This document shows, piece after piece, positions 5,414 through 34,230 of a DNA stretch of 34,230 nt (position 1 is the first letter of the stretch; each line of letters begins with the position of its first letter). The notes beneath the pieces were generated by a model. The model was not told the DNA's origin. It saw only the letters and a program-made list of their open reading frames with translations, and searched no databases. A program made the translations under genes and the position numbers. The stretch comes from an uncultured delta proteobacterium (lineage in GTDB: Bacteria; Myxococcota_A; UBA9160; JAFDET01): positions 1 to 34,230 of the forward strand of contig CAMYLJ010000053.1 in assembly GCA_947259215.1 (NCBI GenBank), in the 5' to 3' direction.

Positions 5414-5534
5414 CGACGAGATCTGACCGTGCGCGCGGCATGGATCAGCGGGACCACCCACGGCTTCGGCGGTTCTTTGCACCTGGGGGTGCGGGGGAGA
5501 GTGCTGCCGGGAACTTCTCAAGGCCCACCCGGTC

Positions 5535-5659
5535 GCTTACAGTGTGCTTACCGGGCCGGGAGTCAGGGCCGATTCCATTGCAAGTGCAAGGAGTTAGAGG
5601 CCAGTCGACGCTGAATGGGGTTCAGGAGGTCGCGAGTTCGAATCTCGCCGGCCCGACCA
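5535..5659 (+). repeat. tRNA-Pro-like dispersed repeat, copy 1
   Basis: Full-length 125-bp copy. GCTTAC occurs at 5535 and again 11 bases later; GATTCC lies at offset 36. The tRNA-like part begins with CTGAAT at 5611, exactly 76 bases from the first GCTTAC. It holds an anticodon-type arm with loop ATGGGGT (anticodon GGG), an AGGTC variable loop, T-arm GCGAG-TTCGAAT-CTCGC, CGGCCCG and ACCA. No matching 5' acceptor strand or D-arm is present, so it is not a functional tRNA. The tail begins GCTTCTTCCCCGAAA, as in the copy at 32145. The rest of the 5380-5867 spacer shows no gene. Confidence 0.85.
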
Positions 5660-5867
5660 GCTTCTTCCCCGAAACTCTTTTGTTTCCCGACGGGTTGCAC
5701 TGCGACGCCGTGCGCTCCGTTACTCCCCGATCCGCCGCTATTTCGGTCCGTTTGCCTACTATGTGCTTGTTGTGAGCGGGCCGAGGCGCGCCTGAAGCAG
5801 CGCATGCCGCTCCCAGCGTATGATCGGAGCGCGAGCACACGACCGCGACGCTTGGAGGTGAACGGGC

Positions 5868-10618: not shown

Positions 10619-10656
10619 GCTACCCACCTTCGCCGCGCGCCGAGGCGCCGCGAGGT

Positions 10657-10752
10657 GCTTATCGGGCGCTTACAGCCCTGCGCGAGACCGCCGAAACGGC
10701 AGCTCTTCCAAGCAGTTACCGACCTCTTCGTCCTGAAGGGAATTCAGGAGGG
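10657..10752 (+). repeat. divergent tRNA-like repeat, copy 2 of the family
   Basis: GCTTAT at 10657 is followed by GCTTAC 11 bases later, and CTGAAGGGAATTCAGG starts at 10733, again exactly 76 bases from the first hexamer. The interior and the 3' part have drifted: the anticodon-arm stem survives but the T-arm and CCA are not recognisable. The invariant spacing in an otherwise eroded copy supports common descent. It lies between the ends of two convergent genes. Confidence 0.6.
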
Positions 10753-12007: not shown

Positions 12008-12318
12008 TGCGTATCTCCCTTGGTGGTCTCACATGGAACCCGAGCGGCGCTCGATGACCCTGCCTCTCAACTATCATGTCGGTGCAAGCCTTCAACCCAG
12101 GAGGCGGCAGCGCTCGCAGCATACTAGCAGCGGCCCACCAGCCACCAGGCGCTGATTTCTTGCCGTAAATCAAGACGTTGCCCCAATTGGGGAGCCGTCA
12201 CGAGCAGGTGGAAACACAGCGGCTCCTGCAGCCTATCCAACGGTTCGCTCGTCGCGGCCTTTGCCGCAGCTCCTAGTCAGGCGGCGCTGCTCCCAAGAGC
12301 CGACAGCCCCCACCGGCT

Positions 12319-12443
12319 GCTTACGATGTGCTTATCGCCTTCGGCTTCGAGACCGATACCGAAACGATTCCCATAGCTTGGAACCGGATGGGCCCTGAAT
12401 GGGGTTCAGGAGGTCGTGAGTTCAAATCTCGCCGGCCCGACCA
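12319..12443 (+). repeat. tRNA-Pro-like dispersed repeat, copy 3
   Basis: Full 125-bp copy. GCTTAC at 12319 and GCTTAT 11 bases later; GATACC and GATTCC at offsets 36 and 47; CTGAAT at 12395, offset 76. The tRNA-Pro(GGG)-like half ends ACCA at 12443. It has two T-arm changes (GTGAG, TTCAAAT) relative to the others. It sits in a 785-bp spacer (12008-12792) that holds this repeat, its tail hairpin and an inverted sister copy, but no gene I can support. Confidence 0.85.
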
Positions 12444-12450
12444 ATGGAAT

Positions 12451-12491
12451 CAGCCGGTTGCGGACCCCGTCTTCCCGCCCAGAACCGGCTG
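12451..12491 (+). repeat. hairpin tail following repeat copy 3
   Basis: CAGCCGGTT (12451-12459) pairs with AACCGGCTG (12483-12491), a perfect 9-bp stem with a 23-base loop containing CCCCGTCTTCCC. The same tail follows the copy at 21066 with one stem mismatch, and its first arm survives after the copy at 29875. It is therefore part of the repeat in one subfamily and may act as a bidirectional terminator. Confidence 0.55.
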
Positions 12492-12651
12492 GCAAGCACC
12501 CGGCAAGCAGTCCGTTCGTCCTTTGGGACCCCGCCGGGGGCCAATGTGGAGCCGGGCTACGATCGCGTCCGTCACCGTGGATCTGTTTCGAGGCAGCCGC
12601 TGCCCCGCGTGCGAATCGAACATCGCGGGCGGCCGGTAATCGAGTGGTTTC

Positions 12652-12778
12652 ATGGCTCGGGCCGGCGAGATTCGAACACTCGACCTGCGCAACCCGATTC
12701 AGGACCCGTCAGCTTCCAAACCCCTGGGATCATGTGGGAATCGGCCCCGAAATCGGAGGCAGCAAGCGCACCGCAAGG
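12652..12778 (-). repeat. tRNA-Pro-like dispersed repeat, inverted copy 4
   Basis: Reverse-strand copy. Read on the minus strand, CCTTGC then GCTTGC 11 bases on, GATTCC and GATCCC at offsets 36 and 47, and CTGAAT at offset 76. The anticodon-type loop here is ATCGGGT (anticodon CGG), and the 3' end is CGGCCCGAGCCA instead of CGGCCCGACCA. It begins 14 bases after the stop of the sensor cyclase gene and forms a tail-to-tail inverted pair with the copy at 12319. Confidence 0.75.
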
Positions 12779-12792
12779 AGGGAGCATGCGGG

Positions 12793-18959: not shown

Positions 18960-18964
18960 CGCGA

Positions 18965-19240: not shown

Positions 19241-19489
19241 TCACCCTTGGCCCCGCTTGCTCTCCTCGCTCGACGCTCTGCGGACCGAACCGCGGTCCGA
19301 CGTCGACGCACGCCGGGCGTCTGCGAGGAAGCCGTCGAGATCGGCGCGGTCGTAACGGACGGCGTGGCCGAGCTTGAGGAAGCGCGGACCGCGGCCGGAC
19401 AAGCGCCACTTCTGGAGCGTGCGGACGCTCAGGCAGAGGAGTTTCGAGGCATCGCGCTCGTTGAGCAGCTGGGCCACAGCCAAGGCCAT
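19241..19489 (-). CDS. excisionase/AlpA-like helix-turn-helix protein
   Basis: The 82-residue protein carries a MerR/AlpA-type helix-turn-helix (HTH_17 style): QLLNERDASKLLCLSVRTLQ, then KWRLSGRGPRFLKLGHAVRY and RADLDGFLADARR. Such proteins act as excisionases or regulators of integrases. It starts 50 bases after the integrase stop on the same strand, the usual int-xis arrangement of small integrative elements. Confidence 0.75.
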   Translation of the reverse strand: MALAVAQLLNERDASKLLCLSVRTLQKWRLSGRGPRFLKLGHAVRYDRADLDGFLADARRASTSDRGSVRRASSEESKRGQG

Positions 19490-19539: not shown

Positions 19540-20877
19540 CTAGAAGCGGCGCGTTTCTGGGCCCTTGGGCCCCCCACCCGAGGCGCCGCGTGAGGTGTCT
19601 TGGCGGCCCTTGGCTCCGCCTCGGCGACCAGACCGCACGCCGCGCTCCTTCCTGCGCGCGCCCATCGGTAGGACCGGGGCCTCCTCGCGGCCATCCAGCG
19701 CCGCGGCAATCCGCGAGCCCACGAGCTCGCTCGCGGTGCGGATCGGGTCGTCGGCCAGGTGGGCGTAGCGGTCGGTCGTAGAAGCCTGGCGGTGGCCCAG
19801 AAGGGCGCCGATCAGGGGCAGGCTGAGACCGGCCGCGGCGCGCACGCTCGCGAAGCTGTGCCGGAGGTCGTGGAGGCGGACGTCCTCGATGCCGGCGCGC
19901 TTGCGCACCCGGCGCCAGATCTTGCCGAGGTTGACCAGATGCTCGCCGGGCAGGTCGCCCGGGATGACCCAGGGCGAATCGCCACGCGCCGCGTGGCGCG
20001 CCACCAGGAGCTCGAGCGCAGGGGCGTTAAGCGGGATGGTCTTGGCCCCGGTCTTCGAGTCCGGGATCCGAAGCATCCCCCACTCGAAGTCCACGTGCTG
20101 CCAGCGCAGGCTCAGGATCTCGCTGGTCCGCGCGCCGGTGAAGACGAGGAGCCGCAGGGCGGCGACGGCGGCCGGAAGCTCCGAGCTGAAGCGCCGGGGG
20201 TCCTTCCCTGCCTCGTAGGCGTCTTCCAGGGCCTTCAGGGCGTCCCCAAGTCGGGCCAGCTCCTGGGCCGACAGGAACCGCTCGCGCCGCCGCTCGGGGA
20301 AGCGCTGGACGCCGCGGGAGGGGTTGAAGAAGGCCGGCACGAGATCCCGCCGCTCGGCGAAGTGGAAGAGGCTCGACAGCAGCGAGACCACCCGGTTTCC
20401 CATGGTCGGCCGATCGCGCATCGAGAGCTGGAGGCGCTCCACCTCCGCGCGATTGATCTGGAGGACGCGCCGGCTGCCGAGCACCGGGAGGATGTCCCGC
20501 TCGAGCATGCGCCGGTCCTCGGCGGCGCTTCGCGGCTTCTTCCTCGGCTCGGCGTGCTCCGCGAGGTAGCGGAACGCGAGCTGGCGCAGGGTCAGGGCCT
20601 CGCGCGAGGTGTCGCGGTCCTCGGCGGGATCGCCCCCGGCCGCCACCTCGGCGAGGACGCCCAGGGCGAGCTTGCGCGCGCCTTCGGGCGTGAGCGGTCC
20701 GGGGCGCCCGAGCGTCACGTGACGCGTGCGCCCGTGGGCGCGGTACTGGACGACGTAGCTCTTCGTCCCCGTCGCGCGGACGCGCAGGCCGAAGCGCGGA
20801 AGATCTTCGTCCCAGAGCACGTAGTTGCGCGGCTTCGGTGCTGCCGCGTCGACGGTGCGCTTGGTCAGCTTCGGCAT
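19540..20877 (-). CDS. tyrosine recombinase/integrase of the P4-like type
   Basis: The 445-residue protein begins MPKLTKRTVDAAAPKPRNYV, the DUF4102-like arm-binding domain of P4-type integrases (VLWDEDLPRFGLRVRATGTKSYVVQYR-like). A core-binding domain follows (residues about 105-205), then the catalytic domain. Catalytic residues are visible: Arg in FTGARTSEILSLRW, His-x-x-Arg in HDLRHSFASV, His in LLGHRQASTT and Tyr in DRYAHL. The C-terminus is a basic low-complexity tail. The enzyme should be intact. The ATG at 20877 is chosen over the longer frame for family fit. The tRNA-Pro-like sequence at 21066 lies 190 bases upstream of the gene and is a candidate attachment site. Confidence 0.9.
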   Translation of the reverse strand: MPKLTKRTVDAAAPKPRNYVLWDEDLPRFGLRVRATGTKSYVVQYRAHGRTRHVTLGRPGPLTPEGARKLALGVLAEVAAGGDPAEDRDTSREALTLRQLAFRYLAEHAEPRKKPRSAAEDRRMLERDILPVLGSRRVLQINRAEVERLQLSMRDRPTMGNRVVSLLSSLFHFAERRDLVPAFFNPSRGVQRFPERRRERFLSAQELARLGDALKALEDAYEAGKDPRRFSSELPAAVAALRLLVFTGARTSEILSLRWQHVDFEWGMLRIPDSKTGAKTIPLNAPALELLVARHAARGDSPWVIPGDLPGEHLVNLGKIWRRVRKRAGIEDVRLHDLRHSFASVRAAAGLSLPLIGALLGHRQASTTDRYAHLADDPIRTASELVGSRIAAALDGREEAPVLPMGARRKERGVRSGRRGGAKGRQDTSRGASGGGPKGPETRRF

Positions 20878-21065
20878 CCGGTTCTCCGCAGGTCGCGACC
20901 TTCTGACATGACTCAGTGACGTTCCGGCAAGCACAGGGCGAGCAAGCGGGATCAATTCGCAGGGTATGCGGGGGTCGAGCGGGGTTCAACAACAAACCGA
21001 CAACGCCGCGAGATTTCGCACGCAATCGCAGTGTGTCGCAATTCTGCGTAACACTAGTGAACCTT

Positions 21066-21110
21066 ATGGGGTTCAGGAGGTCGCGAGTTCGAATCTCGCC
21101 GGCCCGACCA
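21066..21110 (+). repeat. tRNA-Pro-like repeat copy 5, 3' half only, next to the integrase
   Basis: This copy has the loop-to-CCA part (ATGGGGTTCAGGAGG onward) identical to other copies but no hexamer pairs upstream. At the expected positions there is unrelated, AT-richer sequence with several TCGCA motifs (about 21010-21045). The homology begins at the anticodon loop, where some integrases recombine. It is best read as an integration junction made by the adjacent integrase or a relative. Confidence 0.75.
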
Positions 21111-21117
21111 ATGCAAT

Positions 21118-21159: not shown

Positions 21160-21168
21160 GTGCTTCGG

Positions 21169-22422: not shown

Positions 22423-22424
22423 GC

Positions 22425-25400
22425 TCAGACCTCGAGCTGCTGGCTGCACAGGTAGAAGTAGAGCCCGCGGCGGCGCATGAGCTCCTCGTGGGTTCCGCGC
22501 TCCACGAGCTGGCCGCCGTCGAGCACCGCGATGACGTCCGCGTGGCGCACGGTGGACAGCCGGTGCGCCACGATGAAGCAGGTCCGCTCCTCCAACAGCC
22601 GCCCCAGGTTCTCCTGGAAGGCGCGCTCGGACTCGACGTCCAGGGAGCTCGTGGCTTCATCGAGGATCAGGACGGGCGGCCGGTGGTAGAGGGCCCGGGC
22701 GATGGCGACACGTTGGCGTTGTCCTCCGGACAGAGCCATTCCCGTCTCGCCCACATGTGTGTCGTAGCCGAGGGGCAGACGGTCGATGAAGGCATGGGCG
22801 TTGGCTACCCGCGCCGTCCACACGACCCGGTCCATGTCGGGCTCCTCCTCTCCAAAGGCGATGTTGCGCGCGATCGTGTCGTCGAAGAGGTGGGTCTCCT
22901 GGAGGACGAAGCCGATCTGGCGCCGAAGGTCGCGGTAGGAGAGGGTGCGCAGGTCGACGTGGTCGTAGAGGATCGTGCCCTGGGTGGGCTCGAGGAGTCC
23001 CGCCAGGCACTTCACGAGGCTCGTCTTTCCCGAGCCGCTGCGGCCCACGATGGCCACGGTGGTGCCGGCCGGCACCTCGAGAGAGATGCCTTCCAGCACG
23101 GGCGTCGAGTCCGGGCCACCGTAGCGGAGGCCCAGGTCGCGCAGCTCCACGTGGCCCTCGAGGCTGCGAACCGGACGCAGGGCCTCGCGATCGTGCCCCT
23201 GCTCGGGCTCCGCTTCGAAGACGTCGTCCAGCCGGTCGACCAGCACCGAGGCGTACTGCAGGTCGTCCCAGAGGGCGAGCAGCGTGCCGATCGGGGCATT
23301 CGCCAGGGCCACCAGGGCGTTGAAGGCGACGAGCCCGCCGATGGTCAGCTCCCCGGCCAGCACCTGGCGCGCGCCGACCGCCAGGAAGAGCAGGAGCGAC
23401 ACGAAGCCGACGGCCTGGACCGCGCCCTCGTAGCCCATGATGGTGATGTCGGCGTCGAAGACCCGCCGCGCCACCCCGTGGAACTGGCGCAGCAGCCGCT
23501 CCCGGAAGCCGTCCTCCGCACCCATCGCCTTCACGGTCTCGATGCCGCGGACCGCGTCGATCTGGTGGGACTGGTAGCGGCCGAAGGCCTGCTCGAGCTC
23601 GCCGAAGAGGGGGCGCAGTCGCCGGCGGGAGTAGTGCATCAGGCCGGCGTAGAGGGGCGTCACGGCCAGGAAGACGAGCCCCAGGACCCGGCTGTAGACG
23701 AACATGACGGCGAGCGCCGCGGCGAGCTGGGTCACGGCGGTGAGCCCGCGAACCGCGTGCTGCACCGCGAACTGACGCACCTCCTGCAACCCGGACAGCC
23801 TGCGCTGGATGTCGCCGGTGCGTCTCGTGTGGAAGTAGCTGACCGGCAGCGAGAGGAGCTTGCGCGTGAGGGAATCGAGGGTGGCCGCGTCGATCCGCAC
23901 GGCGCTGAAGGAGAGCAGATAGCGCTGCACGAATACCGCGGCCAGCATGAAGGCCACGACGCCCATCAGCACGGCCACGAGGACCTGCAGCAGACCCACG
24001 TCCTGTTCGACCAGCACCCGGTCGACGATCACCTGGGTGACCACCGGGAAGAGCATGGCCGCGCCGCTCGCAGCCACCGCGAGTCCCAGGGCCCGCGCCA
24101 GGAGCGGGGCGTGGGGTCGGACGAAGGGCCAGAGCCAGGCCAGCCCGGAACGACCCTCGGGCGCGTCGGCGAAGGCGTCCGTGTAGTCGAACAAGGCGGC
24201 GTACCCACTCCACTTGTCGTCGAACTCGGCGCGCGGGATGCGGCGCAGGCCGCTGGCGGGATCGGCGATGCGCGCCCCATTCTCGTCGACGTCGTAGAGC
24301 ACGACCCAGTGGTTGGCCTCCCAGTGGCAGATTGCGGGGAGCGGCATCTCGAGCAGGTGGGAGCGAGAGGCCTTCACCGTACGCGCCGCAAGCCCGAGCT
24401 CCTCGGCGCCGCGGCACAGCGCTCGCAGGCTGGTCCCGTCCCGGCTCACCTGCACCAGGCGCCGGATCCGGGTGGTCGGCACGGCGCGTCCGAAGTGGCG
24501 GCAGACCATCGCCAGGCAGGCCGCCCCGCAGTCCATGGCGTCGATCTGACGGACGTGGGGAAAGCGGCGGATGCGACCCGGCCGCTTCACGAAGCGACCC
24601 TCCGGCGAGGCGAAGGGCGCCTCGCCTGCCGCCTCGGATTCCTCCCGCGCGGCGCCCTCGTCCACGACCGCGGGCGCGGTGGCGTCGGCCGGCAGCAGCT
24701 CCTCGGCGAAGTCGATCGGGACCCGCGCCGTCTCGCGGTAGCCGTACTGCGCGACGCGCTCCTCGATCCGGGCGCGGAAGTCGGGGTGCGCCTCCACGAG
24801 GCGTTGGAAGGTCTCGCGGCCCAGGCGCAGCAGCCGGCACGGCGAGACCGTCTCCACGCTGGCCGCGCGAGCGGTCCCCTGGAAGAGCGCCTTTTCCCCG
24901 AAGAAGTCGCCCTTGCGCAGGTACGCCAGATAGCGGCGCTCGCCCGCCTCCTCCCGGAAGGCGCGCAGGCGGCCCTCCTCGACGACGTACATCGCGTCCG
25001 CCGGCTCGCCCTCGCGCACCACGCGCACGCCGGCCGCCACGTCCTCCGGCTCGAGTTCTTCGAGAATCCGGGCCAGCGCCTCGGCCGGAAGTCGCGCGAA
25101 GGGCGAGTAGAGGCGGAAGAAGTTCTCGAGCGCGCGGTGGCGCATGCGCAGCTCGAAGTAGACGCCGATCTCGGGGTGCTCCCGGACCAGGCGCTTCAGC
25201 ACCGCACCATCGAGGCGCAGCAGCTCGACATCGCTCGTGGCGCGCACGGTCGCCGCACGCGGCGCGTCTCCGAGGACGCCGGCCTCGCCGAATCCCTCCC
25301 CGGGCCGCAGCACGCCCAGGGGCACCTCCTGCGTCCCGGATCCGCGTTTCAGCACGCGGGCCCGGCCGGAGGCCAGGACGTAGTAGGCGTCCGCGGGGTC

Positions 25401-25529
25401 TCCTTCGCGCACGATCTCCGACCCGAACTGTGCCGACACCGGAACGAAGGCGTCGGCCACGCGCTTGCGGAGCTCGGCCGGCATCATGCGCAGGAGCGGG
25501 AGGTGTTCCAGGGTCTCGCGGCGGTCCAT
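22425..25529 (-). CDS. peptidase C39-containing ABC exporter with two N-terminal cyclic-nucleotide-binding domains
   Basis: The 1034-residue protein has five parts. Two cNMP-binding domains lie at about 10-125 (SEIVREGDPADAYYVLASGRA, GEGFGEAGVLGDAPRAATVRA) and 145-265 (VREGEPADAMYVVEEGRL, GDFFGEKALFQGTARAASV). The C39 peptidase at about 325-455 has Cys334 in DAMDCGAAC and His407 in NHWVV, with Asp in IADPASG. A six-helix ABC membrane domain lies at about 475-770. The nucleotide-binding domain has Walker A GRSGSGKTS, signature LSGGQRQR, Walker B LILDEAT and the H-loop in VAHRLS. C39 domains cut leader peptides after a double glycine while the transporter exports the core. All catalytic residues appear intact. 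Both cNMP domains keep the FGE-x6-R-A-A/S phosphate-cassette pattern, which suggests export or cleavage responds to cAMP or cGMP. Confidence 0.92.
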   Translation of the reverse strand: MDRRETLEHLPLLRMMPAELRKRVADAFVPVSAQFGSEIVREGDPADAYYVLASGRARVLKRGSGTQEVPLGVLRPGEGFGEAGVLGDAPRAATVRATSDVELLRLDGAVLKRLVREHPEIGVYFELRMRHRALENFFRLYSPFARLPAEALARILEELEPEDVAAGVRVVREGEPADAMYVVEEGRLRAFREEAGERRYLAYLRKGDFFGEKALFQGTARAASVETVSPCRLLRLGRETFQRLVEAHPDFRARIEERVAQYGYRETARVPIDFAEELLPADATAPAVVDEGAAREESEAAGEAPFASPEGRFVKRPGRIRRFPHVRQIDAMDCGAACLAMVCRHFGRAVPTTRIRRLVQVSRDGTSLRALCRGAEELGLAARTVKASRSHLLEMPLPAICHWEANHWVVLYDVDENGARIADPASGLRRIPRAEFDDKWSGYAALFDYTDAFADAPEGRSGLAWLWPFVRPHAPLLARALGLAVAASGAAMLFPVVTQVIVDRVLVEQDVGLLQVLVAVLMGVVAFMLAAVFVQRYLLSFSAVRIDAATLDSLTRKLLSLPVSYFHTRRTGDIQRRLSGLQEVRQFAVQHAVRGLTAVTQLAAALAVMFVYSRVLGLVFLAVTPLYAGLMHYSRRRLRPLFGELEQAFGRYQSHQIDAVRGIETVKAMGAEDGFRERLLRQFHGVARRVFDADITIMGYEGAVQAVGFVSLLLFLAVGARQVLAGELTIGGLVAFNALVALANAPIGTLLALWDDLQYASVLVDRLDDVFEAEPEQGHDREALRPVRSLEGHVELRDLGLRYGGPDSTPVLEGISLEVPAGTTVAIVGRSGSGKTSLVKCLAGLLEPTQGTILYDHVDLRTLSYRDLRRQIGFVLQETHLFDDTIARNIAFGEEEPDMDRVVWTARVANAHAFIDRLPLGYDTHVGETGMALSGGQRQRVAIARALYHRPPVLILDEATSSLDVESERAFQENLGRLLEERTCFIVAHRLSTVRHADVIAVLDGGQLVERGTHEELMRRRGLYFYLCSQQLEV

Positions 25530-25534
25530 GCTCG

Positions 25535-26440
25535 TCAGAATCCGATCGCCCAGCGCACGTGCTCGTCGCAGGCGTGCTGGAGCTCGTTGCGACGCACGCG
25601 TTCGCGCGCCCGCGCGCGCACGTCGGGATCCTCGATGCGGGGGATCTGCTTGCTGACGACCTGATAGAGGGCGAAGCCGTCCCCGAACGGGACCGGACCG
25701 ACGAGCTCCTCCTCCGCGGCGGCGGCGAGGGCGCCGGTGCTCTCGGGAGGCAACTCCTCCAGCCAGAAGTCCACCCGCTCGAGCGGACGCGCCGCGTCGG
25801 CGGCGACGGCGTCGAGGGATTCCCGGTCCTCGCGTACCCGTAGCGCCCCCTCCCGGGCCATGGGCTCTTCCGGGAGCACCAGCCGGCGAGCTCGGATTCG
25901 CAGCCAGTCCAGGCGGTGAAGCGCCAGGCAGCGCTCGAGGGCAGACGTCGAGGGCTCGCCGAGATCGGCGACCGCAGCGGCCGCCTCGGCCGCCAGGGCC
26001 CGGGCCGCCTCCTCGAGGGCGCCGGAGCAGATGGCTTCGCTCCAGTGTGCGGCCGAGAGCGCGGCCGGGTCGGGCGAGAAAGGCGCGAGGATGGCTCCGA
26101 GTTCGTCGGCCCAGTGCTCGCGCAGCAGCCCTCGACGCAGGGCTGCGGTCCAGGCCTCTTCATCGAGGCCCCAGCGCCCCAGCCAGGCGCGCGTGTCGTC
26201 GCCAGAGATCAGGTCGCGCGCGTAGCGGAAGCTCTCCGCGGCTGCGTCGAGGGCGCCGGCCGGCAGCGGATCGCCCTCCGCCTCGGCGCGCAGCTCGCAC
26301 GCGAGCCCCGCCCGGGCCCGTGCCTCGACGGCCGCCCAGACGCCGCGCCGTCGCGCGGCGTCGACGACGTCCTTCCCGGTGTATTCGGTGGACCCGACGC
26401 GGAACACGACGCGCTCCTGCCCCATGCCCATCGTAGGCAT
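25535..26440 (-). CDS. parvulin-like (PpiC-related) peptide maturation protein
   Basis: The 301-residue protein has a SurA/PpiC-like layout: a short beta-start (VVFRVGSTEYTGKDVVDAAR), a long helical region, and a C-terminal domain with ERVDFWLEELPPE and VGPVPFGDGFALYQVVSKQI, which recalls the parvulin rotamase core. Related proteins accompany peptide exporters and have been described as putative peptide maturation proteins. No signal peptide is seen, so it may act in the cytoplasm on the precursor. ATG at 26440 is preferred because GAGGGG lies 4 bases upstream; ATG 26431 and 26425 are close alternatives. It is the first gene of the export operon, 5 bases before the ABC gene. Confidence 0.65.
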   Translation of the reverse strand: MPTMGMGQERVVFRVGSTEYTGKDVVDAARRRGVWAAVEARARAGLACELRAEAEGDPLPAGALDAAAESFRYARDLISGDDTRAWLGRWGLDEEAWTAALRRGLLREHWADELGAILAPFSPDPAALSAAHWSEAICSGALEEAARALAAEAAAAVADLGEPSTSALERCLALHRLDWLRIRARRLVLPEEPMAREGALRVREDRESLDAVAADAARPLERVDFWLEELPPESTGALAAAAEEELVGPVPFGDGFALYQVVSKQIPRIEDPDVRARARERVRRNELQHACDEHVRWAIGF

Positions 26441-26614
26441 TGTACCCCTCGGGGGGGAGGGAAAGGGAGATCCTGGGAGAGACCGGGCGGTGCTCGTGGC
26501 GCGCGCCCGACGCGGGGGCCTCGCCCGGCCTCCGGGCAGACTCGCCGGACCTGCCCCCGAGGGAAGACGGGATTCGTGCAGCGGGTCTCCGACCGGCGAA
26601 CCGCCCGAGGCTCT

Positions 26615-26662
26615 GGGTCTGAAGCGCTGACGGCTCGGCGGCGCCCGGCCGTGCACGTCCTG
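26615..26662 (+). repeat. decayed duplicate of the precursor-end/glycosyltransferase-start junction
   Basis: GCGCTGACGGCTCGGC (26624-26639) and CCGTGCACGTCCTG (26649-26662) recur in the same order at 26890-26905 and 26923-26936, where they are the end of the peptide gene and the start of the glycosyltransferase gene. The upstream pair lies ahead of the peptide gene, so an earlier tandem copy of this junction was probably lost. Confidence 0.6.
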
Positions 26663-26731
26663 CATGGCGGCCCGGCTCTCGCCCGCATCGTGGCATACTG
26701 GCAGCCGGACCCACCCAAAGGAGGCTCCATC

Positions 26732-26896
26732 ATGCCGTCCAAGAAAGGCAAGAAGAAGGCGACCCGGAAGTCGTCTTCCAAGAAGACCAAGGATCTCTCT
26801 CCGCGCAAGGACCCGAAGGGCGGAGCCGTCGGCGACACGCTTACCCTTAACCTGAAGGGCAAGGACTCGGTGCGCCCCAGGGGTTTCAGGCGCTGA
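26732..26896 (+). CDS. putative double-glycine peptide precursor (RiPP/bacteriocin-like)
   Basis: The 54-residue peptide has a very basic Lys/Ser-rich start (MPSKKGKKKATRKSSSKKTK), then DLSPRKDPKGG, with a Gly30-Gly31 pair suitable for C39 cleavage. A 23-residue putative core follows, AVGDTLTLNLKGKDSVRPRG plus FRR, which has no cysteine but two serine/threonine-rich spots. AAAGGAGG lies 6 bases before the ATG, a near-ideal ribosome site, which strongly supports expression. It is divergent from the C39 exporter operon and 28 bases upstream of a glycosyltransferase gene on the same strand. That it is the exporter's cargo is inferred from the motif and position. Confidence 0.75.
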   Translation: MPSKKGKKKATRKSSSKKTKDLSPRKDPKGGAVGDTLTLNLKGKDSVRPRGFRR

Positions 26897-26924
26897 CGGC
26901 TCGGCTGGGCTCGGAGGCGGGACC

Positions 26925-28121
26925 GTGCACGTCCTGTTCGTGCATCCGAGCAATCCGGCGCAGTTCCGCCCCGTGCTCGGTCATCTCGCCCGGCGCCCCG
27001 GGTGGCGCTGCACCTTCGTCGCCGCGCGGCGGGCCGTGCGGATCGATGGTGTCGAGCACCTTCGCTATCGCCCGCGCGGCGGCGCCACCGAGTACAACTC
27101 GTTCCACACCCGGACGTTCGAGAACGCCGTCGCGCACGCCGAGGGCGTCTATCGGGCGCTGAAGGCCCGGCCCGACGTCCAGCCCGATCTGATCGTGGGC
27201 CACTCGGGCTTCGGATCGACGATCTTCCTGCGTGAGCTCTTCGACGCGCCGATCGTGAACTACTTCGACTTCTTCTACCGTCCGGGTCTCGATTTCCGTC
27301 CCGATTTCCCGATCGGCGAAGCCGAGCGTCTACGCGCCCGGGTCCGCGGCGCGATGGTGCTCCTCGACCTCGACAACTGCGACGCCGGCTACACCCCCAC
27401 CCGATTCCAGCAGCGGAGCCTGCCGGCGGAGTATCGGGAGAAGGTTCGCGTCATCCACGACGGCGTGGATACCGAGGTCTTCCAGCGACGCTCGAACCCG
27501 GGGCGCCGGATCGGCAGCCGAACCATCGCTCGGGACACCCGGATCGTGACCTACTGCGCCAGCGGACTCGAGCTGACCCGCGGCTTCGACGTCTTCATGA
27601 GGGCGGCGAAGATCATCTATCGCAAGCATCCGGACGTCGTCTTCCTCGTGGTCGGGAGCGACCACGTCTTCTACGGGGACGACGAGGACTGGATCGGGAA
27701 GCACGCCTCGCTGCGCGAGTGGGTCCTGGCGCAGGATGAATACGACCTCTCGAAGTTCGTCTTCCTGGGACGCGTCGCCCGGCGGACGCTCGCCCGGGTC
27801 TTCTCCCTGAGCGACGTCCACGTGTATCTCACGGTCCCCTTCGTCCTCGGCTGGTCGCTGATGGATGCACTGTCCTGCGGCGCCGTGGTGGTCGGGTCGG
27901 ACACGGAGCCCGTGCGCGAGATGATCCGCCCTGGCGAGAACGGGCTTCTCGCGGATTTCTTCGACGCCGAGAGAATCGCCGACCTGGCGCTCGGCGTGTT
28001 TCGCGACCCCGGCGCCTACGAAGGCATGCGCCGCAACGCAGCCGCGTTCATCGAGGAGCACTACAGCGCCGATGTCGTGGTTCCCCGGATCCTCGAGCTC
28101 TACGAGCGCGTGGCGGGCTGA
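26925..28121 (+). CDS. GT4-type glycosyltransferase
   Basis: The 398-residue protein has the two Rossmann halves of GT-B glycosyltransferases. The N-terminal half starts MHVLFVHPSNPAQFRPVLGH, with DLIVGHSGFGSTIFLRELF and YFDFFYRPG. The C-terminal half has VTYCASGLELTRGFDVFMRA, VFLVVGSD, and the sugar-nucleotide loop YLTVPFVLGWSLMDALSCGA ending VREMIRPGENGLL (the E-x7-E-like region). It transfers a sugar to an unknown acceptor. The tight spacing after the peptide gene suggests the peptide, or a surface glycan, as target. GTG start chosen by fit to the N-terminal beta strand. Confidence 0.85.
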   Translation: MHVLFVHPSNPAQFRPVLGHLARRPGWRCTFVAARRAVRIDGVEHLRYRPRGGATEYNSFHTRTFENAVAHAEGVYRALKARPDVQPDLIVGHSGFGSTIFLRELFDAPIVNYFDFFYRPGLDFRPDFPIGEAERLRARVRGAMVLLDLDNCDAGYTPTRFQQRSLPAEYREKVRVIHDGVDTEVFQRRSNPGRRIGSRTIARDTRIVTYCASGLELTRGFDVFMRAAKIIYRKHPDVVFLVVGSDHVFYGDDEDWIGKHASLREWVLAQDEYDLSKFVFLGRVARRTLARVFSLSDVHVYLTVPFVLGWSLMDALSCGAVVVGSDTEPVREMIRPGENGLLADFFDAERIADLALGVFRDPGAYEGMRRNAAAFIEEHYSADVVVPRILELYERVAG

Positions 28122-28137
28122 TCCGGAGAGCGGGCGG

Positions 28138-28160
28138 ACCGGGAGGGCAGAGGGCCCGGT
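28138..28160. terminator. hairpin between convergent glycosyltransferase and sulfotransferase genes
   Basis: ACCGGG and CCCGGT form a 6-bp stem with an 11-base purine-rich loop, placed midway in the 42-base gap between two convergent stop codons. It may end transcription from both sides; no T-tract is present. Confidence 0.4.
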
Positions 28161-28163
28161 GGC

Positions 28164-28967
28164 TCAGATCTCGTAGCCCCGTGACCGGGCCAGCTCGCGG
28201 TTGAGGCCACGCACGATCGCGAGGTCGCTCTCGCCGAGCAGCCGCTTCCACGTGCCCCGATTGGACTCGTCGATGGGCCGGTCTCGCATGGTTCCGCCGA
28301 TCGCCTCGCCCGAGTGCAGCTCGTGATGTCGGAGCACGTTGTCGTCCCAGGCCAGGCCCAGTTCGTGGAGCACCTCCCCGACGACTCGGCGCGGCTCGGT
28401 GACCAGGTCCTCGTAGCCCACCGGGCGCAGTGGAATGCCGGAGGAGGCGACCACGCTCATCCACTCCTGCTTGATGCGCCAGCAGAGGGCCCCGGCGAGC
28501 ACGATCTCCTGTCTGGAACGCGAAGCAGGCGGCCGGGCCTGCGACCGCACCCAGTCCGCATGGACGGTCTCGAGCGCCGCTCGGGTCGCAGCCGGCAGGG
28601 CCGGATAGCCGCTTTCGATCTCGAAAGTGGCGCCACCCGGATGAGCCGCCCAAGGTGCAGAGCCCGCGTCGCCCAAGGACAGGTGCAGGCCCACCATGGA
28701 CGCCACCACGTCCCTTGGATCGCGAACGCACCAGAGCACCCGGACGTCCGGCAGGCTGCGCATGAACTCGACGTCGTGCGCCTGGCGCGGAAGCTTGAAG
28801 ACCACCTGTGGGCTGTATTCGCTGGCGCTCAGGTAGCGTGGGAGCTCGTCGATGTCGAAGTCCCACTCGTCGACCACCGTCGCGTCGGCATGGGAGTCCA
28901 GGATCAGGCTCAGCAGGGTCGTCCCGCTGCGTTGACAGCCGGTGACGAGGATCGGTCGATTGCCCAT
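28164..28967 (-). CDS. sulfotransferase family protein
   Basis: The 267-residue protein starts MGNRPILVTGCQRSGTTLLS, the 5'-phosphosulfate-binding loop of PAPS-dependent sulfotransferases. The 3'-phosphate motif is in VLWCVRDPRDVVASMVGLHL. Late motifs RPVGYEDLVTEPRRVVGEVL and a final R-x2-W-x2-L pattern (NRGTWKRLL) also fit. It should transfer sulfate from PAPS to a carbohydrate, lipid or peptide. It faces the glycosyltransferase gene and shares its neighbourhood with a methyltransferase, so together they may decorate one product. Confidence 0.85.
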   Translation of the reverse strand: MGNRPILVTGCQRSGTTLLSLILDSHADATVVDEWDFDIDELPRYLSASEYSPQVVFKLPRQAHDVEFMRSLPDVRVLWCVRDPRDVVASMVGLHLSLGDAGSAPWAAHPGGATFEIESGYPALPAATRAALETVHADWVRSQARPPASRSRQEIVLAGALCWRIKQEWMSVVASSGIPLRPVGYEDLVTEPRRVVGEVLHELGLAWDDNVLRHHELHSGEAIGGTMRDRPIDESNRGTWKRLLGESDLAIVRGLNRELARSRGYEI

Positions 28968-29031
28968 GGCCTCAGGGTACGCTGGCGCCCGCTCGCTGGC
29001 AGCGGCGCTGCGGGCCTCGTTGGGGAGAGGC

Positions 29032-29646
29032 TCAACCGGTAGGGGTGTCCGGCTGCTCGTAGGGGCGGCACGCGGCGAGGCACTCGTCGAAGAGGGCCAG
29101 CATGCGCTCGGGCGCCAGCTCGGCGCCCGGCAGCGGAGCCTTCGGGTCCTTGATGGTCAGCACCGCGAAGTCGATGTGACTCACCACGTTGAACAGGTGT
29201 CTCCGCGCCCATTCCTGGTCTTTGGCGGGCTTGTTCGCGTACTCGTCCGTGTAGTGCAGTCGGTGGGCGATCTTCGTAAAGAGGATGTCGTCTTGCTCGG
29301 CCGCCGAGCCCTTGAGCCGATCCGGGTCGAAGAAGTCGAAGGAGTGCTCGTTGAAGTTCTGCCGATGGTACGGATTGACCAGGTTGTACTCGGTGAGGGT
29401 GACGTAGGGCACGCCGACCAGCAAAGGGCAGCCGTGCTTGAGCACGCGGTGGATCTCGCCGAGGGCGAAGAGATAGCGGTCCAGGTGTTCGAGTGCGTGA
29501 TAGGTGAAGACCAGGTCCACGCTGTCGTCGTCGAACGGCAGCCGATCCACGTTGAGATCGAGACTCACGTCGGCCCTCGAGGAGAGGTCCACGTTGGCAA
29601 AGCCTCGTATATAGGTCCGTCCCGCCCCGATGTTCAACCTGGTCAC
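29032..29646 (-). CDS. class I SAM-dependent methyltransferase
   Basis: The 204-residue protein opens LNIGAGRTYIRGFANVDLSS, motif I of small class I methyltransferases that act on sugars or surface polysaccharides. Motif II-like LPFDDDSVDLVFTYHALEHL and the post-motif HRVLKHGCPLLVGVP follow. The substrate is unknown. GTG start with GGGAG upstream; the TTG four codons on is an alternative. It lies 64 bases upstream of the sulfotransferase gene on the same strand and is likely co-transcribed with it. The 375-bp spacer upstream holds a tRNA-Pro-like repeat. Confidence 0.85.
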   Translation of the reverse strand: MTRLNIGAGRTYIRGFANVDLSSRADVSLDLNVDRLPFDDDSVDLVFTYHALEHLDRYLFALGEIHRVLKHGCPLLVGVPYVTLTEYNLVNPYHRQNFNEHSFDFFDPDRLKGSAAEQDDILFTKIAHRLHYTDEYANKPAKDQEWARRHLFNVVSHIDFAVLTIKDPKAPLPGAELAPERMLALFDECLAACRPYEQPDTPTG

Positions 29647-29874
29647 GTTCTCCCGCCTGCGGTGTTGGGCGCCTGAGATCGCCGGATTCTCCAGAAGCGC
29701 AGCTTCTCATACCTCCATGGCCCGCCTGCTCGACTCAGCCGCGCCCGCCGGCGGTCGATCGCGCCGTTCGCGTCCCGTAATGGCTCGTCGATCGTCTCCC
29801 CGGGGCATTCTACCGGGACCCCACCGCCTCCCGACGGCGGCACTCGCCTGCAACGATCAGGCAACGCCCCCGGC

Positions 29875-29999
29875 GCTTGCAGTGTGCTTACTGGCGCCAG
29901 GCCACGGGCCGATTCCTCAATGATTCCAATTGGTTGCGGAGCGCCTCGTCCTGAATGGGATTCAGTAGGTCGCGAGTTCGAATCTCGCCGGCCCGACCA
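29875..29999 (+). repeat. tRNA-Pro-like dispersed repeat, copy 6
   Basis: Full 125-bp copy. GCTTGC at 29875 and GCTTAC 11 bases on; GATTCC at offsets 36 and 47; CTGAAT at 29951, offset 76. The loop reads ATGGGAT with CAGTAGG after the stem, a small change from the others. ACCA ends at 29999. The tail begins AGGAAATCAGCCGGT, a partial version of the hairpin tail of copies 3 and 5. Confidence 0.85.
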
Positions 30000-30021
30000 A
30001 GGAAATCAGCCGGTCACGAAT

Positions 30022-30810
30022 CTACGGTGCGCCTTCGAAGCGATCGACCGCCCAGGTGGCGACCGGGCCCTCCACGCCCCGCACCTCCGCAGGCGGCATG
30101 GGGCGCAGGGCGAAGCGCGGGTCGAGGTCTTCGCGCACGGCCGTGGTCACCAGAACGTCGCCGTCGCAGCTGCGCGTCAGGTCCTGGACCCGGGCGGCGA
30201 GGTTCACGGTGCGCCCCACCAGCGCGAACTGCACGAGGTCACGGCTGCCGACCAGGCCGGCAACACCCGATCCGCGGTGGATGCCCACCCCGATCGCGAT
30301 AGTCGGCAGACCCTCGGCCGCCAGCTCCTTGTTGTAGGCTTCCAGCTCGCGGCGCATGGCCAGGGCCGCGTGCGCGGCGTCGTTGGCCTGCCAGGGGTTC
30401 GGCTGGAGCGCGCCGAAGAGCGCCAGGATCCCGTCGCCCAGGAACGTGGACACGTACCCCCGGTGGTCCGTGATGGCGCGGCTCATGCGCTCGAAGTGGC
30501 CGTTCAGGATGCGCAGGAGCACGTCGGGCTCGATGCTCTCGGAGAGCGCCGTGAAGCCCACGAGGTCGGCGAAGAGCGCCGTCACCTCCTTGCGTTCGCC
30601 GCGGGGCGCAACGCCGCTCGCGATGATCTCCTCGATGATCTCGTCGGGGGCGAAACGCGAGAAGGAGTGCTGGAGGTTCTCGAGCTCACGGGCCGCCGCC
30701 TCGAGGCGTCGGCGCAGGCGCCGCCGCTCCACGCCGGCGCGCCAGAGCCACGCGCCGAGCCCGAGGAGCGCCAGGCCGAGCGCCGCCACCGCCCACGGCG
30801 GCAGCGTCAC
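30022..30810 (-). CDS. membrane-anchored class III adenylate/guanylate cyclase
   Basis: The 262-residue protein has one N-terminal helix (PWAVAALGLALLGLGAWLW), a short coiled linker, and a complete cyclase domain. Metal aspartates are in LFADLVGFTAL and FLGDGILALFG. The transition-state Asn and Arg are in LVGRTVNLAARV. Unlike the cyclase at 12793, all catalytic positions are standard. It makes cAMP or cGMP in the cytoplasm. Its GTG overlaps the stop of the upstream CMD-family gene (GTGA), so the two form an operon. Confidence 0.88.
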   Translation of the reverse strand: MTLPPWAVAALGLALLGLGAWLWRAGVERRRLRRRLEAAARELENLQHSFSRFAPDEIIEEIIASGVAPRGERKEVTALFADLVGFTALSESIEPDVLLRILNGHFERMSRAITDHRGYVSTFLGDGILALFGALQPNPWQANDAAHAALAMRRELEAYNKELAAEGLPTIAIGVGIHRGSGVAGLVGSRDLVQFALVGRTVNLAARVQDLTRSCDGDVLVTTAVREDLDPRFALRPMPPAEVRGVEGPVATWAVDRFEGAP

Positions 30811-31907
30811 GCGAGCTGCCCGAGCACGAGGCACAGCCGGCACACGGCGTTGCCGAGGGCGGACAGGCCGACCAGCTCCATGAACTGCTCGTCGTCGAGC
30901 TCGGCCTTCACCTCGCGAGCCCGGCGCTGGATCGGCGCCGGCTGGTACCAGACCGTCTCGCGCACGAAGGGCAGGATCGCGGCCTCGAGGGGCTCGAGAG
31001 CCGGCGATTCCAGGTGGGCGAGGATCTCCTCGCCCTGCGCCGGCGAGATCCCCGCTGCGTCCAGCAACCGGAAGGCCTCGGCCTCGGATCGCGCGCAGCC
31101 CAGGGCCCGCGCCACCACGGCGAACACGAGCGCCTTGGTGCGCTGGGGGAGGGAGGTCGGGGCGAAGGCATCGTCCAGGATGGCACGCAGCTTGCGCCCG
31201 GCGGGCAGCCCGTCGAGCGCGCACACGATGTCCGCGAAGGGTCCCTCCTTCTCCTCCGCGTCCAGGCGGACCTCGCCGTGCCGCCGGTGATAGAGGCGCA
31301 GGGCCCGGGCGCGCAGAAAGGGCCGCACCAGGGCGAGGAGCCGGGTCCTCCCGGCGCGCTCCAGGCCCTCGGGACGCAGGGCCACGAACGTCGTGAGACG
31401 GTTGACCATCACGAAGCTGGCGGCGACGCAGGCGAGCTCCTTCAGCTCCGCATCGGAGTAGCCGACCTCGCGCAGCGCCTTCACGTCCGCGTCCGAAGGC
31501 GGGGGATTGGCGCGCGAGACGCGGCGGGCGAAGTCGAGCGCGAGGCCGAGCGCCGCGTCCTCGCCGGCCAGCAGGAGGCCTCCCTCGAGGCGATCGATCT
31601 CGGCGTTGTCGAGGCCCGCAATGCGCAGGAAGAGCCGGCTTCCCGCGTAGCAGTTGCGGCAGGCGTTGTCGCGGCTCACCACCACGACGGCGAGATCCGC
31701 TACCCGCCAGTCCAGATCGCGGAGGTCCTTGCGCGCGAGTCGCCCGGCCGCCCGCGCCACCCACGGGCTCCCCGTGAAGCAGGCCACGACACGGTACGGC
31801 AGGCCTTCCGCCCGCGCCCAGCGCTCGAGCTCTGCGTCGCCGCGCCGCTCGACCAGCGGAGGGCGCTCCCACTCGATCGCGTCGATCCGGTCGGGTGCCG
31901 TCGTCAT
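30807..31907 (-). CDS. carboxymuconolactone decarboxylase/AhpD-like protein, probably tandem domain
   Basis: The 366-residue protein is all-helical by composition. The first half carries DNACRNCYAG, the CxxC redox motif of AhpD/CMD proteins, in a region WRVADLAVVVVSRDNACRNC typical of peroxidase-related CMD enzymes. The second half has the related VFAVVARALGCARSEAEAF, where the second cysteine is replaced by Ser. A duplication with one degenerate site is likely. The role may be peroxide or disulfide reduction. It is translationally coupled to a cyclase, hinting at redox-linked cyclic nucleotide signalling; this is inferred only from the overlap. Confidence 0.75.
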   Translation of the reverse strand: MTTAPDRIDAIEWERPPLVERRGDAELERWARAEGLPYRVVACFTGSPWVARAAGRLARKDLRDLDWRVADLAVVVVSRDNACRNCYAGSRLFLRIAGLDNAEIDRLEGGLLLAGEDAALGLALDFARRVSRANPPPSDADVKALREVGYSDAELKELACVAASFVMVNRLTTFVALRPEGLERAGRTRLLALVRPFLRARALRLYHRRHGEVRLDAEEKEGPFADIVCALDGLPAGRKLRAILDDAFAPTSLPQRTKALVFAVVARALGCARSEAEAFRLLDAAGISPAQGEEILAHLESPALEPLEAAILPFVRETVWYQPAPIQRRAREVKAELDDEQFMELVGLSALGNAVCRLCLVLGQLA

Positions 31908-32010
31908 GGCCTCCCCGGAGATCGTCGTCCCCGGGAGACTGTAGGCCGCTCGTCGAATAGCCGCAGGGCCAGCTCGCGATTCGCGACGAGCGCGAAAGCG
32001 GAGGGCGTCT

Positions 32011-32139
32011 TCAGGCGCTCCCTTCCGTCGACGATCGGGCCGGCACGGTCGAACGCCGGGTCAGCACGACCGCGGTGAACGCCAGCAGCAGGCACGTCGC
32101 CACCAAACCCGCCGGCGTCAGGCTCGCGACCCCCAGCGT
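32011..32139 (-). pseudogene. possible membrane transporter C-terminal fragment
   Basis: On the minus strand, RTLGVASLTPAGLVATCLLL continues with AFTAVVLTRRSTVPARSSTE and GSA before a stop. It looks like the last helix and cytoplasmic tail of an MFS-type transporter. The frame runs into the 5' end of repeat copy 7 and stops there, so the rest of the gene is missing. It could be chance hydrophobicity. The remainder of the 31908-32313 spacer shows no gene. Confidence 0.35.
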
Positions 32140-32144
32140 TCGGT

Positions 32145-32269
32145 GCTTACAATGTGCTTACTGGCTTCGGTCAGGGCATCGATTGTGGAATGATTCCAGA
32201 GAGTTGGGAGCCAATTGGCCCTGAATGGGGTTCAGGAGGTCGCGAGTTCGAATCTCGCCGGCCCGACCA
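32145..32269 (+). repeat. tRNA-Pro-like dispersed repeat, copy 7
   Basis: Full 125-bp copy and close to the family consensus. GCTTAC at 32145 and 32156; GATTGT and GATTCC at offsets 36 and 47; CTGAAT at 32221, offset 76; ACCA ends at 32269. The tail GCTTCTTCCCCGAAA is identical to that of copy 1. It sits 44 bases beyond the stop of the esterase gene on the other strand. Confidence 0.85.
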
Positions 32270-32313
32270 GCTTCTTCCCCGAAAGCATTCGTGAGCCGCG
32301 GAGCGCGCGGGCT

Positions 32314-34152
32314 TCAGCGTTGCTCCAGGTGCAGGCGCAGGATGCGCCGGACTTCCTCGATCGCCGGGGGCGTCCCCTGGGCGGAGTGACCGGTGCGCTC
32401 GATCACGAATTCCGACTCGACGCCCTCCACGTGGGCGCTGTCGTACTGGACCACGCCGTCGTCCAGTCCGGCGAAGGGCGGCCCATCGCCTTTCACCGGG
32501 ATGATCGAATGGACCGCGACGCCCGGCGCGATCGGGCTCGCCGCCAGGGTGACGCTGAAGGGGTGCTCCGGGTCCATGTTGTCGACGCTGCTCGGGAGCC
32601 GTTCCAGGTCCCGCATGGCGAGGGCGTCGCGGTTGTCGGTCAGGATCTCGGCGCCGGTCTGCGCCAGGTTCACGGGCATCCGGACGAGACGCGCGGCCAT
32701 CCGGCCGAGGCGGTTGCCCGCCACGAAGCTGCCCGCGTGCGGCGTCGAGATGAAGATCACGCGCTTCACCGAGGCCACCGGCTCGAAGAAGAGGGACCGC
32801 TGCAGGAGGTCGCGGGTCGCGTCGCTGACGTCGAGCTCGGCGAGGGGCTTCGTGGCCACCGCGTTCCAGAAGCGGTCGCCGCTGTCGGTCACCATGAGGC
32901 GGACGATGACGCCCCCCTGGCTGTGACCGATCAGCACCATGTCGCGCAGCGCCGGGTCGCGGCCCTCCGGGTCGAGCTCGCGGACGGCGCCGCGCAGCGC
33001 CTGACGGAGAAGGGACGCCGAGTAGAGAATCGGGTTGCCGGTGTTGTACATGAAGAGCCAGAGCTGACAGCGGCGGTCGATCAGCGGATCGCCCATCAGC
33101 TCGTTCAGAAGCTCGGCCCAGCGCGCGGGGCTCGACGCCGTGCCGTGGACCAGGACGACCGGGACGCGTCCCCGGCTGTAGGGCTGGAGCGCGTACAGGC
33201 CGTCGACGTCGGACCGGTAGGAGCCGGAGAGGTAGCCCCGCTTCTCGAAGGCCCAGGCCTCGGAGTGCTCGAGCGTGTAGGCCAGGGCCGCCGTCGGATC
33301 GTACTCGAGAGGGACCGCGCGACCGGCGACCGTCACACTGGGAGCCACGTGCTCGGCAAAGAGCTCGAGCCTCCCGTGCACGCGGCCCGCGCGAACCGAG
33401 CGCCGGGGGGCCTCGAAGCGGATCAGGACGGTGACGGGAACCTGGAGGGCTGGTGGGATCCGCAGCGATCGCTCGGTCGCGTCCTCGCTTTGCTCGCGCT
33501 CGAGGCTCCCCGCCAGCGCAGCTCCGATGCCCGGGCGGCGGTAGCGGTTGCGAAGACCGCGAACCTCGAAGCGGGCCAGGGAGGTGAAGCCCGCGAAGCG
33601 ATGCTCGCCCCAGGAGAACGCGTCCGGGTCGCTCTCGAGCTCGAGCGTTCCGAAGGGGACCTCGAAGGTCCCCCCGTGCAGCGCGATGGCCCCGGCTTCG
33701 GTCTCCTCGAAGCCCTCCGCGATCCCACGGTTGTAGAGATCCAGGGCCAGGCGCGTGCGGGCGTCGAAGGGCCCAGGCGGCTCGACGGAGTCGGGAAAGA
33801 GGAACGCGTAGGCGTAGAGGGCGGCGGCCAGGTAGCGAGTGTGGCTGCCGGTCTTCTGGCCCTGCTGGAACGAGAGCTCGGCGAGCGCGAAGAGCAGGCG
33901 ATCGTCCAGGTCGCTCCCGAGCTCGGCGTGCAGCGCCGCGAGGGCGTCCTCGGGGTCGCTCCCGTACCGGTCCCACAGCCCGAGGCGCAGCAGCTGCGAT
34001 TTCGAGAAGGAGCTGGGCTCGCCAGCCGAGAGGACGTTCCGGCTGAGGGCCCGGTGGGAGGTCTGATCGTCGACGCGCTCCACCCCGACCGGCGTGGCGC
34101 AGGCGGCAACGACAAGAAGGCCGAGGATCGCCGGCGGCGCGGGTCGCGGCAT
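32314..34152 (-). CDS. alpha/beta hydrolase lipoprotein (esterase/lipase-like)
   Basis: The 612-residue protein starts MPRPAPPAILGLLVVAACAT, a lipoprotein signal with lipobox VAAC, so it is probably anchored to a membrane. The N-terminal 330 residues form a beta-rich region of unknown type. The C-terminal half is an alpha/beta hydrolase: oxyanion-loop VPVVLVHGTASSPARW, nucleophile elbow MVLIGHSQGGVIVRL and ISTPHAGS. Asp and His candidates are in GLDDGVVQYDSA and ERTGHSAQG. It likely cleaves an ester at the cell surface. No strong ribosome site precedes the ATG. Confidence 0.85.
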   Translation of the reverse strand: MPRPAPPAILGLLVVAACATPVGVERVDDQTSHRALSRNVLSAGEPSSFSKSQLLRLGLWDRYGSDPEDALAALHAELGSDLDDRLLFALAELSFQQGQKTGSHTRYLAAALYAYAFLFPDSVEPPGPFDARTRLALDLYNRGIAEGFEETEAGAIALHGGTFEVPFGTLELESDPDAFSWGEHRFAGFTSLARFEVRGLRNRYRRPGIGAALAGSLEREQSEDATERSLRIPPALQVPVTVLIRFEAPRRSVRAGRVHGRLELFAEHVAPSVTVAGRAVPLEYDPTAALAYTLEHSEAWAFEKRGYLSGSYRSDVDGLYALQPYSRGRVPVVLVHGTASSPARWAELLNELMGDPLIDRRCQLWLFMYNTGNPILYSASLLRQALRGAVRELDPEGRDPALRDMVLIGHSQGGVIVRLMVTDSGDRFWNAVATKPLAELDVSDATRDLLQRSLFFEPVASVKRVIFISTPHAGSFVAGNRLGRMAARLVRMPVNLAQTGAEILTDNRDALAMRDLERLPSSVDNMDPEHPFSVTLAASPIAPGVAVHSIIPVKGDGPPFAGLDDGVVQYDSAHVEGVESEFVIERTGHSAQGTPPAIEEVRRILRLHLEQR

Positions 34153-34183
34153 TGCGGGCGGAGGGTAGCGCGGGCGCCCAGCT

Positions 34184-34230
34184 GCTTACGGTGCGCTTAC
34201 TGGCGTCGGTCCAGGGGCCGATTTCGAAAT
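34184..34230 (+). repeat. tRNA-Pro-like dispersed repeat, copy 8 (cut by window end)
   Basis: GCTTAC at 34184 and again 11 bases later, then CTGGCGTCGG and GGGGCCGATTTCGAAAT as in the other copies. The expected CTGAAT would fall at 34260, beyond the window. Confidence 0.75.

Follow-up and report, generated by a model that had tools for sequence, protein, structure and literature searches.

The repeat at positions 32145-32269 of a 34,230-nt stretch of DNA (hereafter the window, which is the entire contig C53 of a 5.70-Mb draft MAG) shows two pairs of hexamers, each spaced by about one helical turn, joined to half of a tRNA gene, and it raises the question of which protein such pairs serve and why several copies lie on the same contig. 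The first-pass annotation of this DNA read the spacing as the signature of protein-binding iterons or integrase arm sites, and the junction with the tRNA half as a preserved attachment-site architecture.

Anatomy of the repeat and conservation of its hexamers

The copy at 32145 shows a GCTTAC pair at 32145-32150 and 32156-32161 (offsets 0 and 11, 11 bp apart) and a second pair at offsets 36 and 47, formed by GATTGT (32181-32186), which is the third hexamer of this copy, and GATTCC (32192-32197). The module adjoins the 3' half of tRNA-Pro(GGG), which ends with CCGGCCCGACCA at 32269. Direct-repeat searching shows that the block starts at 5534, 12318, 29874 and 32144 in the window and also occurs once inverted, with its end at 12780; position 21066 has a tRNA half without the module. 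The other copies keep the offsets with some drift: GCTTAC/GCTTAT and GATACC/GATTCC at 12319, GCTTGC/GCTTAC and GATTCC/GATTCC at 29875, and CCTTGC/GCTTGC and GATTCC/GATCCC in the inverted copy ending at 12780. The layout given in the first-pass annotation, with GCTTAC at offsets 0 and 11, GATTCC-like hexamers at 36 and 47 and a tRNA half behind them, is thus found in this copy and in the others it named. Sites with the GCTTAC pair, the GATTCC set and the core are here termed A-type (Table 1), and in all of them the first hexamer lies 85-89 nt, mostly 88 nt, before the shared 37-nt tRNA core. ARAGORN found no complete tRNA and Rfam gave zero matches within the window, which rules out intact tRNAs as the identity of these repeats. 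The exact four-hexamer pattern has a single site in 79 genomes of the order and is too strict as a query, because the hexamers drift.

The hexamers are better conserved than the bases around them. In 15 non-redundant copies, 13 from this genome and two from another genus, the hexamer columns contain 1.28 bits of information vs 0.69 in the other columns of the module, and only 63 of 20,000 random placements of four 6-mers reach the conservation score of the hexamers. An additional conserved unit, GGTTGG, is present at about offset 57, which brings the second set to three units, spaced about 10-11 bp. Scanned with a profile of the GCTTAC pair, both strands of the array contigs that were retrieved give 35 matches above 11 bits vs five in a reversed-sequence control, which tops out at 15.6 bits, while true sites reach 36. 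The GGTTGG unit, the inverted pairs across the core, the decayed site at about 10650-10751 and the cut site at 34183 were not part of the first-pass annotation.

Table 1. Attachment sites, arm pairs, integrase genes and cassette cargo in the window.
Feature	Position	Strand
A-type att site; right flank of alpha type, homologous to the flank adjoining the second integrase	5534..5659	+
Decayed alpha-arm pair, TGCCTAC...TGCTTGT; no alpha integrase after it	5753..5773	+
Remnant A-type arm module within an element	10650..10751	+
A-type att site	12318..12443	+
Beta arm, inverted TGCTTGC pair about 48 nt past the CCA of the 12443 site	12489..12509	-
Inverted A-type att site, decayed, closing an inverted cassette	12654..12780	-
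82-aa HTH_17 protein adjoining C-int; candidate recombination directionality factor	19241..19489	-
C-int, tyrosine integrase with N-terminal Arm-DNA-bind_3	19540..20877	-
Arm pair TGCTCGC/TGCTTGC on the integrase side, about 50 nt upstream of the C-int ATG (20877)	20924..20944	- (inverted)
C-type att site, integrase-proximal side	21063..21110	+
A-type att site (pair, GATTCC set and core)	29874..29999	+
Two-gene cassette cargo (nucleotide cyclase and CMD-domain protein), between the 29999 and 32144 att sites	30022..31907	-
Putative distal (P) arm, GCTTAC 11-bp direct pair, top profile score in the array	32144..32164	+
Second set: GATTGT (32181), GATTCC (32192) and third unit near 32202; array-specific	32181..32208	+
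Att core, tRNA-Pro(GGG) 3' part from the anticodon stem to CCA	32220..32269	+
One-gene cassette cargo, alpha/beta hydrolase	32314..34152	-
A-type arm module severed by the contig end	34177..34230	+

Pairs on both sides of the core and two integrase lineages

The core is flanked by a pair on either side, and the arrangement comes in two mirror-image versions. The profile scan shows a direct GCTTAC-type pair 92-94 nt past the CCA in three copies beside a second integrase, alpha-int (C23:594-1793, adjacent to the intact tRNA), and in a fourth, decayed copy at window 5753. The same scan shows an inverted TGCTTGC pair about 40-49 nt past the CCA in seven flanks of beta type, including that at window 12489. 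In the third class, the C-type, the pair at each of the three sites is TGCTCGC/TGCTTGC, inverted and about 50 nt upstream of C-int. C-int and alpha-int are 51-53% identical, and both carry Arm-DNA-bind_3 (PF13356) and PF00589. C-type arms like those of the window integrase also occur in other families of the order, at G021:C1:99886-101286 (L107), where the arm ends a 1.35-kb element after a tRNA-Pro, and at G004:C1:1693004-1693048 (L108), a lone site with no tRNA detected.

The near pair of C-int is of the TGCTTGC type, like the beta arms, and the A-type sites mostly show TGCTTAC, like the near pair of alpha-int (TGCTTAC/TGCTTAT). Judged by position and orientation, alpha-int would pair with the A arms and C-int with the beta arms. 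The integrase encoded at 19540-20877, which the first-pass annotation put forward as the partner, is therefore probably not the best candidate for the GCTTAC pair at 32145-32161, and alpha-int is the likelier one. This assignment rests on A vs G at one base and on the A-type sites being homologous arms. A Fisher test of A vs G in the A and beta arms is biased, since the beta sites were picked by a GCAAGC pattern, and the profile scan, which favoured A yet returned only G in the beta arms, was relied on instead.

Pairs and duplicated cores in relatives of the integrase

Eighty relatives of the integrase, mostly from Alphaproteobacteria, were gathered. Of their 42 non-redundant upstream regions, 37 contain an exact 6-mer pair at spacing 11, where shuffled sequences give a mean of 2.0. 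A clear excess is otherwise confined to spacings of 10, 20 and 21, and several relatives show three units 10-11 bp apart. Their heptamer is mostly TGCTTCC or TGCTTAC (TGCTTMC), and matches to the pair in 1.31 Mb number 82, vs one in the reversed control. Where a candidate second pair lay within reach (nine relatives), the flanks of the near and far pairs were compared, and a duplicated att core lies between them in eight, among them Oceanomicrobium, Shimia and Pseudooceanicola. The core is 43-79 nt long in seven of these and 13 nt in L136; the cores end 127-148 nt before the near pair, and their start lies 53-87 nt past that of the far pair. The same comparison gave no convincing core in L162. 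Detection of tRNAs upstream of the relatives' integrases gave none, the cores being found instead by matching of the flanks, and by our reading most of them would be reverse-oriented tRNA 3' halves. In Oceanomicrobium pacificus (L140), two far arm pairs 422 nt apart lie roughly 7.3 and 7.7 kb past the start of the integrase, each with the same att core 71 nt after it, which suggests a small tandem site in a cultured isolate.

The first-pass annotation listed GCTTAC and GATTCC-like hexamers as two pairs with 11-bp periodicity. The two are not equivalent: the GCTTAC type is family-wide and the GATTCC set is array-specific. No GATTCC set was seen as a repeat in the relatives' arms inspected, and TGATTCC serves as the arm heptamer in the single relatives L159 and L161. 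Differences between heptamers track the N-terminal domain of the integrase (partial Mantel r 0.29, p 0.011; catalytic domain r -0.16), a modest effect in an analysis whose choice of pairs favoured TGCTTAC-like matches.

The position of the GCTTAC pair in both arms, its conserved columns, its recurrence across the family, the duplicated cores that accompany it and its covariation with the N-terminal domain make it almost certain that it is an arm-type site, which the integrase would bind. An improbable alternative is that the GCTTAC pairs are sites of a recombination directionality factor of the Xis/Cox/Apl type, which bends att DNA for excision. Operators of Apl of phage 186 at attP are direct-repeat hexamers 10-11 bp apart (PMC7498355), and the HTH_17 gene adjoins C-int; however, the GCTTAC-type pair is in both arms and next to the integrase in most of the family, and its sequence follows the integrase N-terminal domain. 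Such a factor fits better the GATTCC/GATTCC/GGTTGG series, spaced about 10-11 bp. Since Apl binds hexamers at this distance, the GATTCC set may be an excisionase site, or else a secondary arm site.

A role of the pairs as operators or promoter elements for the integrase, spread along with the repeats, is very unlikely. Many integrase start codons do have a pair about 50 nt upstream, and integrase autorepression through arm sites that overlap the promoter is described for IntS of KplE1 (PMC2951348) and IntS of ICEMlSym (PMC11963761); autorepression, however, is compatible with arm function, the second pair is located kilobases away, by the other att core and distant from the integrase gene, and A-type sites of the array have no adjoining integrase. 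An inert dispersed tRNA-derived repeat, with hexamers conserved only by recent common descent, would agree with the decay of some copies, but conservation is focused on the hexamers rather than module-wide, and both spacing and position persist in distant elements of other taxa, in some cases with different heptamers, so we give this possibility hardly any credence. An example is the tRNA-Pro element of G048, from another family of the same order, which keeps the positions with the heptamer TGTGACC and an integrase 48% identical. Replication iterons of an integrated plasmid, one of the two original suggestions, typically show helically spaced direct repeats, but here each site contains two or three units always positioned relative to the tRNA core, and no replication-initiator family was found among the window ORFs scanned with Pfam, which leaves this explanation a negligible probability and arm sites as the suggestion that holds.

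The tRNA-Pro array and its cassettes

The array is split over about ten contigs of the draft MAG. The tRNA half or repeat has about 29 matches in the genome, almost all of them confined to a handful of short contigs and to the edges of contigs, and the sole complete tRNA-Pro(GGG) among these core matches is located at C23:1944-2020, with an integrase 150 bp downstream. Copies are co-oriented within contigs, except the decayed inverted copy in the window, and decayed copies are present at 12654-12780, 10650-10751, C49:5157 and C49:19303. The blocks between copies range from about 2 to 10 kb; several measure 2-4 kb and carry one or two genes of metabolic or signalling function. Cargo across the blocks includes nucleotide cyclases, glutamate dehydrogenase, ABC and HlyD transport, glycosyl- and sulfotransferases, a kinase and an alpha/beta hydrolase. 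A caspase-domain (Peptidase_C14) protein is also among the cassette cargo (L048:7338-9230, on C37).

The core marks where similarity from block to block begins or ends. At the C-int end, C37 and C53 are alike as far as one base past the CCA (C37 22441 / C53 21111); at the alpha-int beginning, C37 and C23 become alike where the tRNA half starts (C37 34765 / C23 1993). One cassette is present twice in the genome (window 32258-34229 and C37:24499-26471, 91% identical), the cargo of the inverted cassette ending at 12654..12780 is 85% identical to C37:28876-31495, and one cassette is common to two genera (C49:19361-22522 and G002 C296, 88%). Tandem accretion of site-specific elements would leave such core-bounded similarity and cassettes shared across positions and genera. 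Within the window, the elements 5660-12318, 21111-29874 and 30000-32144 contain no integrase, and the first of them keeps an alpha flank. Most integrase-less cassettes show beta at the left end and A at the right end, a combination not seen with an intact integrase of its own. No conjugation genes were recognised among the ORFs scanned.

In 59 other related genomes, full A-type sites are found only in G002, which belongs to the same family; the remaining genomes have three matches or fewer each, mostly of the tRNA part alone. The end of C76 (L053:8572-8704) and the end of G002 C296 (L101:4025-4157) are identical over about 96 nt upstream of the att core, and this sharing across genera reflects either recent exchange or a binning error in one MAG. 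Separately, G000 C17:153314-165690 (L056) shows an apparent second tRNA system: the tRNA itself, of anticodon GTC, lies near 153.3 kb, its 3' end recurs near 160.7 and 165.7 kb, and there is an integrase-like match at 153316-153666.

Proposed mechanism

The repeats are very probably att joints of tandem elements at tRNA-Pro(GGG), made by related tyrosine integrases via the arm pairs. Each repeat would be the joint between two elements inserted one behind another, and the tRNA 3' half would be the recombination core, duplicated at each insertion. The attachment-site architecture proposed in the first-pass annotation agrees with this picture; calling it preserved is too static for copies that look like the joints of a tandem array. 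At each TGCTTAC-like pair, two integrase N-terminal domains would dock next to each other on the same face of the DNA helix and anchor the enzyme, while the catalytic domain would act on the core. Elements of the alpha lineage would have the integrase just after the tRNA 3' end, with TGCTTAC pairs and the A arm at the far end; those of the C lineage would have the integrase at the far end, with inverted TGCTTGC pairs and the beta arm on the other side. Integrase-less cassettes with two distal arms (beta left, A right) would therefore have to be moved in trans. A further proposal, which we consider possible but rather doubtful, is that the tRNA-Pro locus acts as an integron-like platform, in which the two mirror-image integrases shuffle small integrase-less beta-A cassettes in trans and these pass between genera.

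Comparison with known systems

The kind of system is already known: arm-type sites at tRNA cores have been described, and so have tandem arrays in which some members lack an integrase. The unusual features here are the count of joints, the small size of the cassettes and their hybrid beta-A ends. The locus shows repeats in helical register, in both arms, an integrase with an arm-binding domain, and a duplicated core identical to the target, as arm-type att sites do. In KplE1, whose IntS acts at the argW tRNA, arm-type repeats lie around the core and the near arm is upstream of int (PMC2951348), and IntS of ICEMlSym(R7A) has five arm sites with the consensus TGKTGGTATC (PMC11963761). The arm-type attP of lambda, KplE1 and ICEMlSym is alike in its short repeats in both arms and its N-terminal arm-binding domain; ICEMlSym differs in that here a heptamer pair, TGCTTMC/TGCTTGC, at 11-bp spacing is common to a wide integrase family. 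No description of the TGCTTMC pair was found in the literature searched, whose limited coverage makes this weak evidence of novelty.

Genomic islands of Dehalococcoides at ssrA lie in tandem, no more than 100 kb from this single RNA gene, and have repeats of the gene's 3' end as their boundaries; 16 contain an integration module and 15 lack one, the latter read as possible cis-mobilizable elements (PMC3146451). They use a serine recombinase (DsiB) and ssrA, whereas here a tyrosine integrase, arm sites and tRNA-Pro are involved. CIMEs and accreted ICEs/IMEs have lost integration genes, kept attL and attR, and stacked by site-specific integration (PMC5704250). Window elements such as 5660-12318, bounded by att sites and devoid of integrase, resemble them, but the array is far richer in units, and several of these span 2-4 kb and hold one or two genes. 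The array also resembles the tycheposons of Prochlorococcus in its tRNA border, tyrosine recombinase and metabolic cargo (PMC10872708).

Integron arrays are alike in their long rows of small varied cassettes served by one or few integrases. They differ in the joints, which here are a tRNA half with arm sites rather than attC, and in the cassettes, which here may hold several genes on either strand. Integrases of the IntI type are not known to have an Arm-DNA-bind_3 domain, and those of the array carry it.

The motif TGCTTMC-N4-TGCTTMC offers a handle for the true ends of elements in a widespread integrase family, including elements without integrase. Dozens of joints can build up by tandem accretion at a single tRNA, with cassettes of one or two genes, a form of gene-pool building akin to integrons without integron machinery. 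The split between GCTTAC, GCTTGC and GATTCC makes integrase specificity and excisionase binding directly testable.

Other features of the window

An 87-nt inverted repeat, 94% complementary, is present at window 17562-17648 and 18815-18901 and encloses a gene for a 206-aa PEP-CTERM protein (18040-18660); the region of its right arm (18825-19130) is also found on C46.
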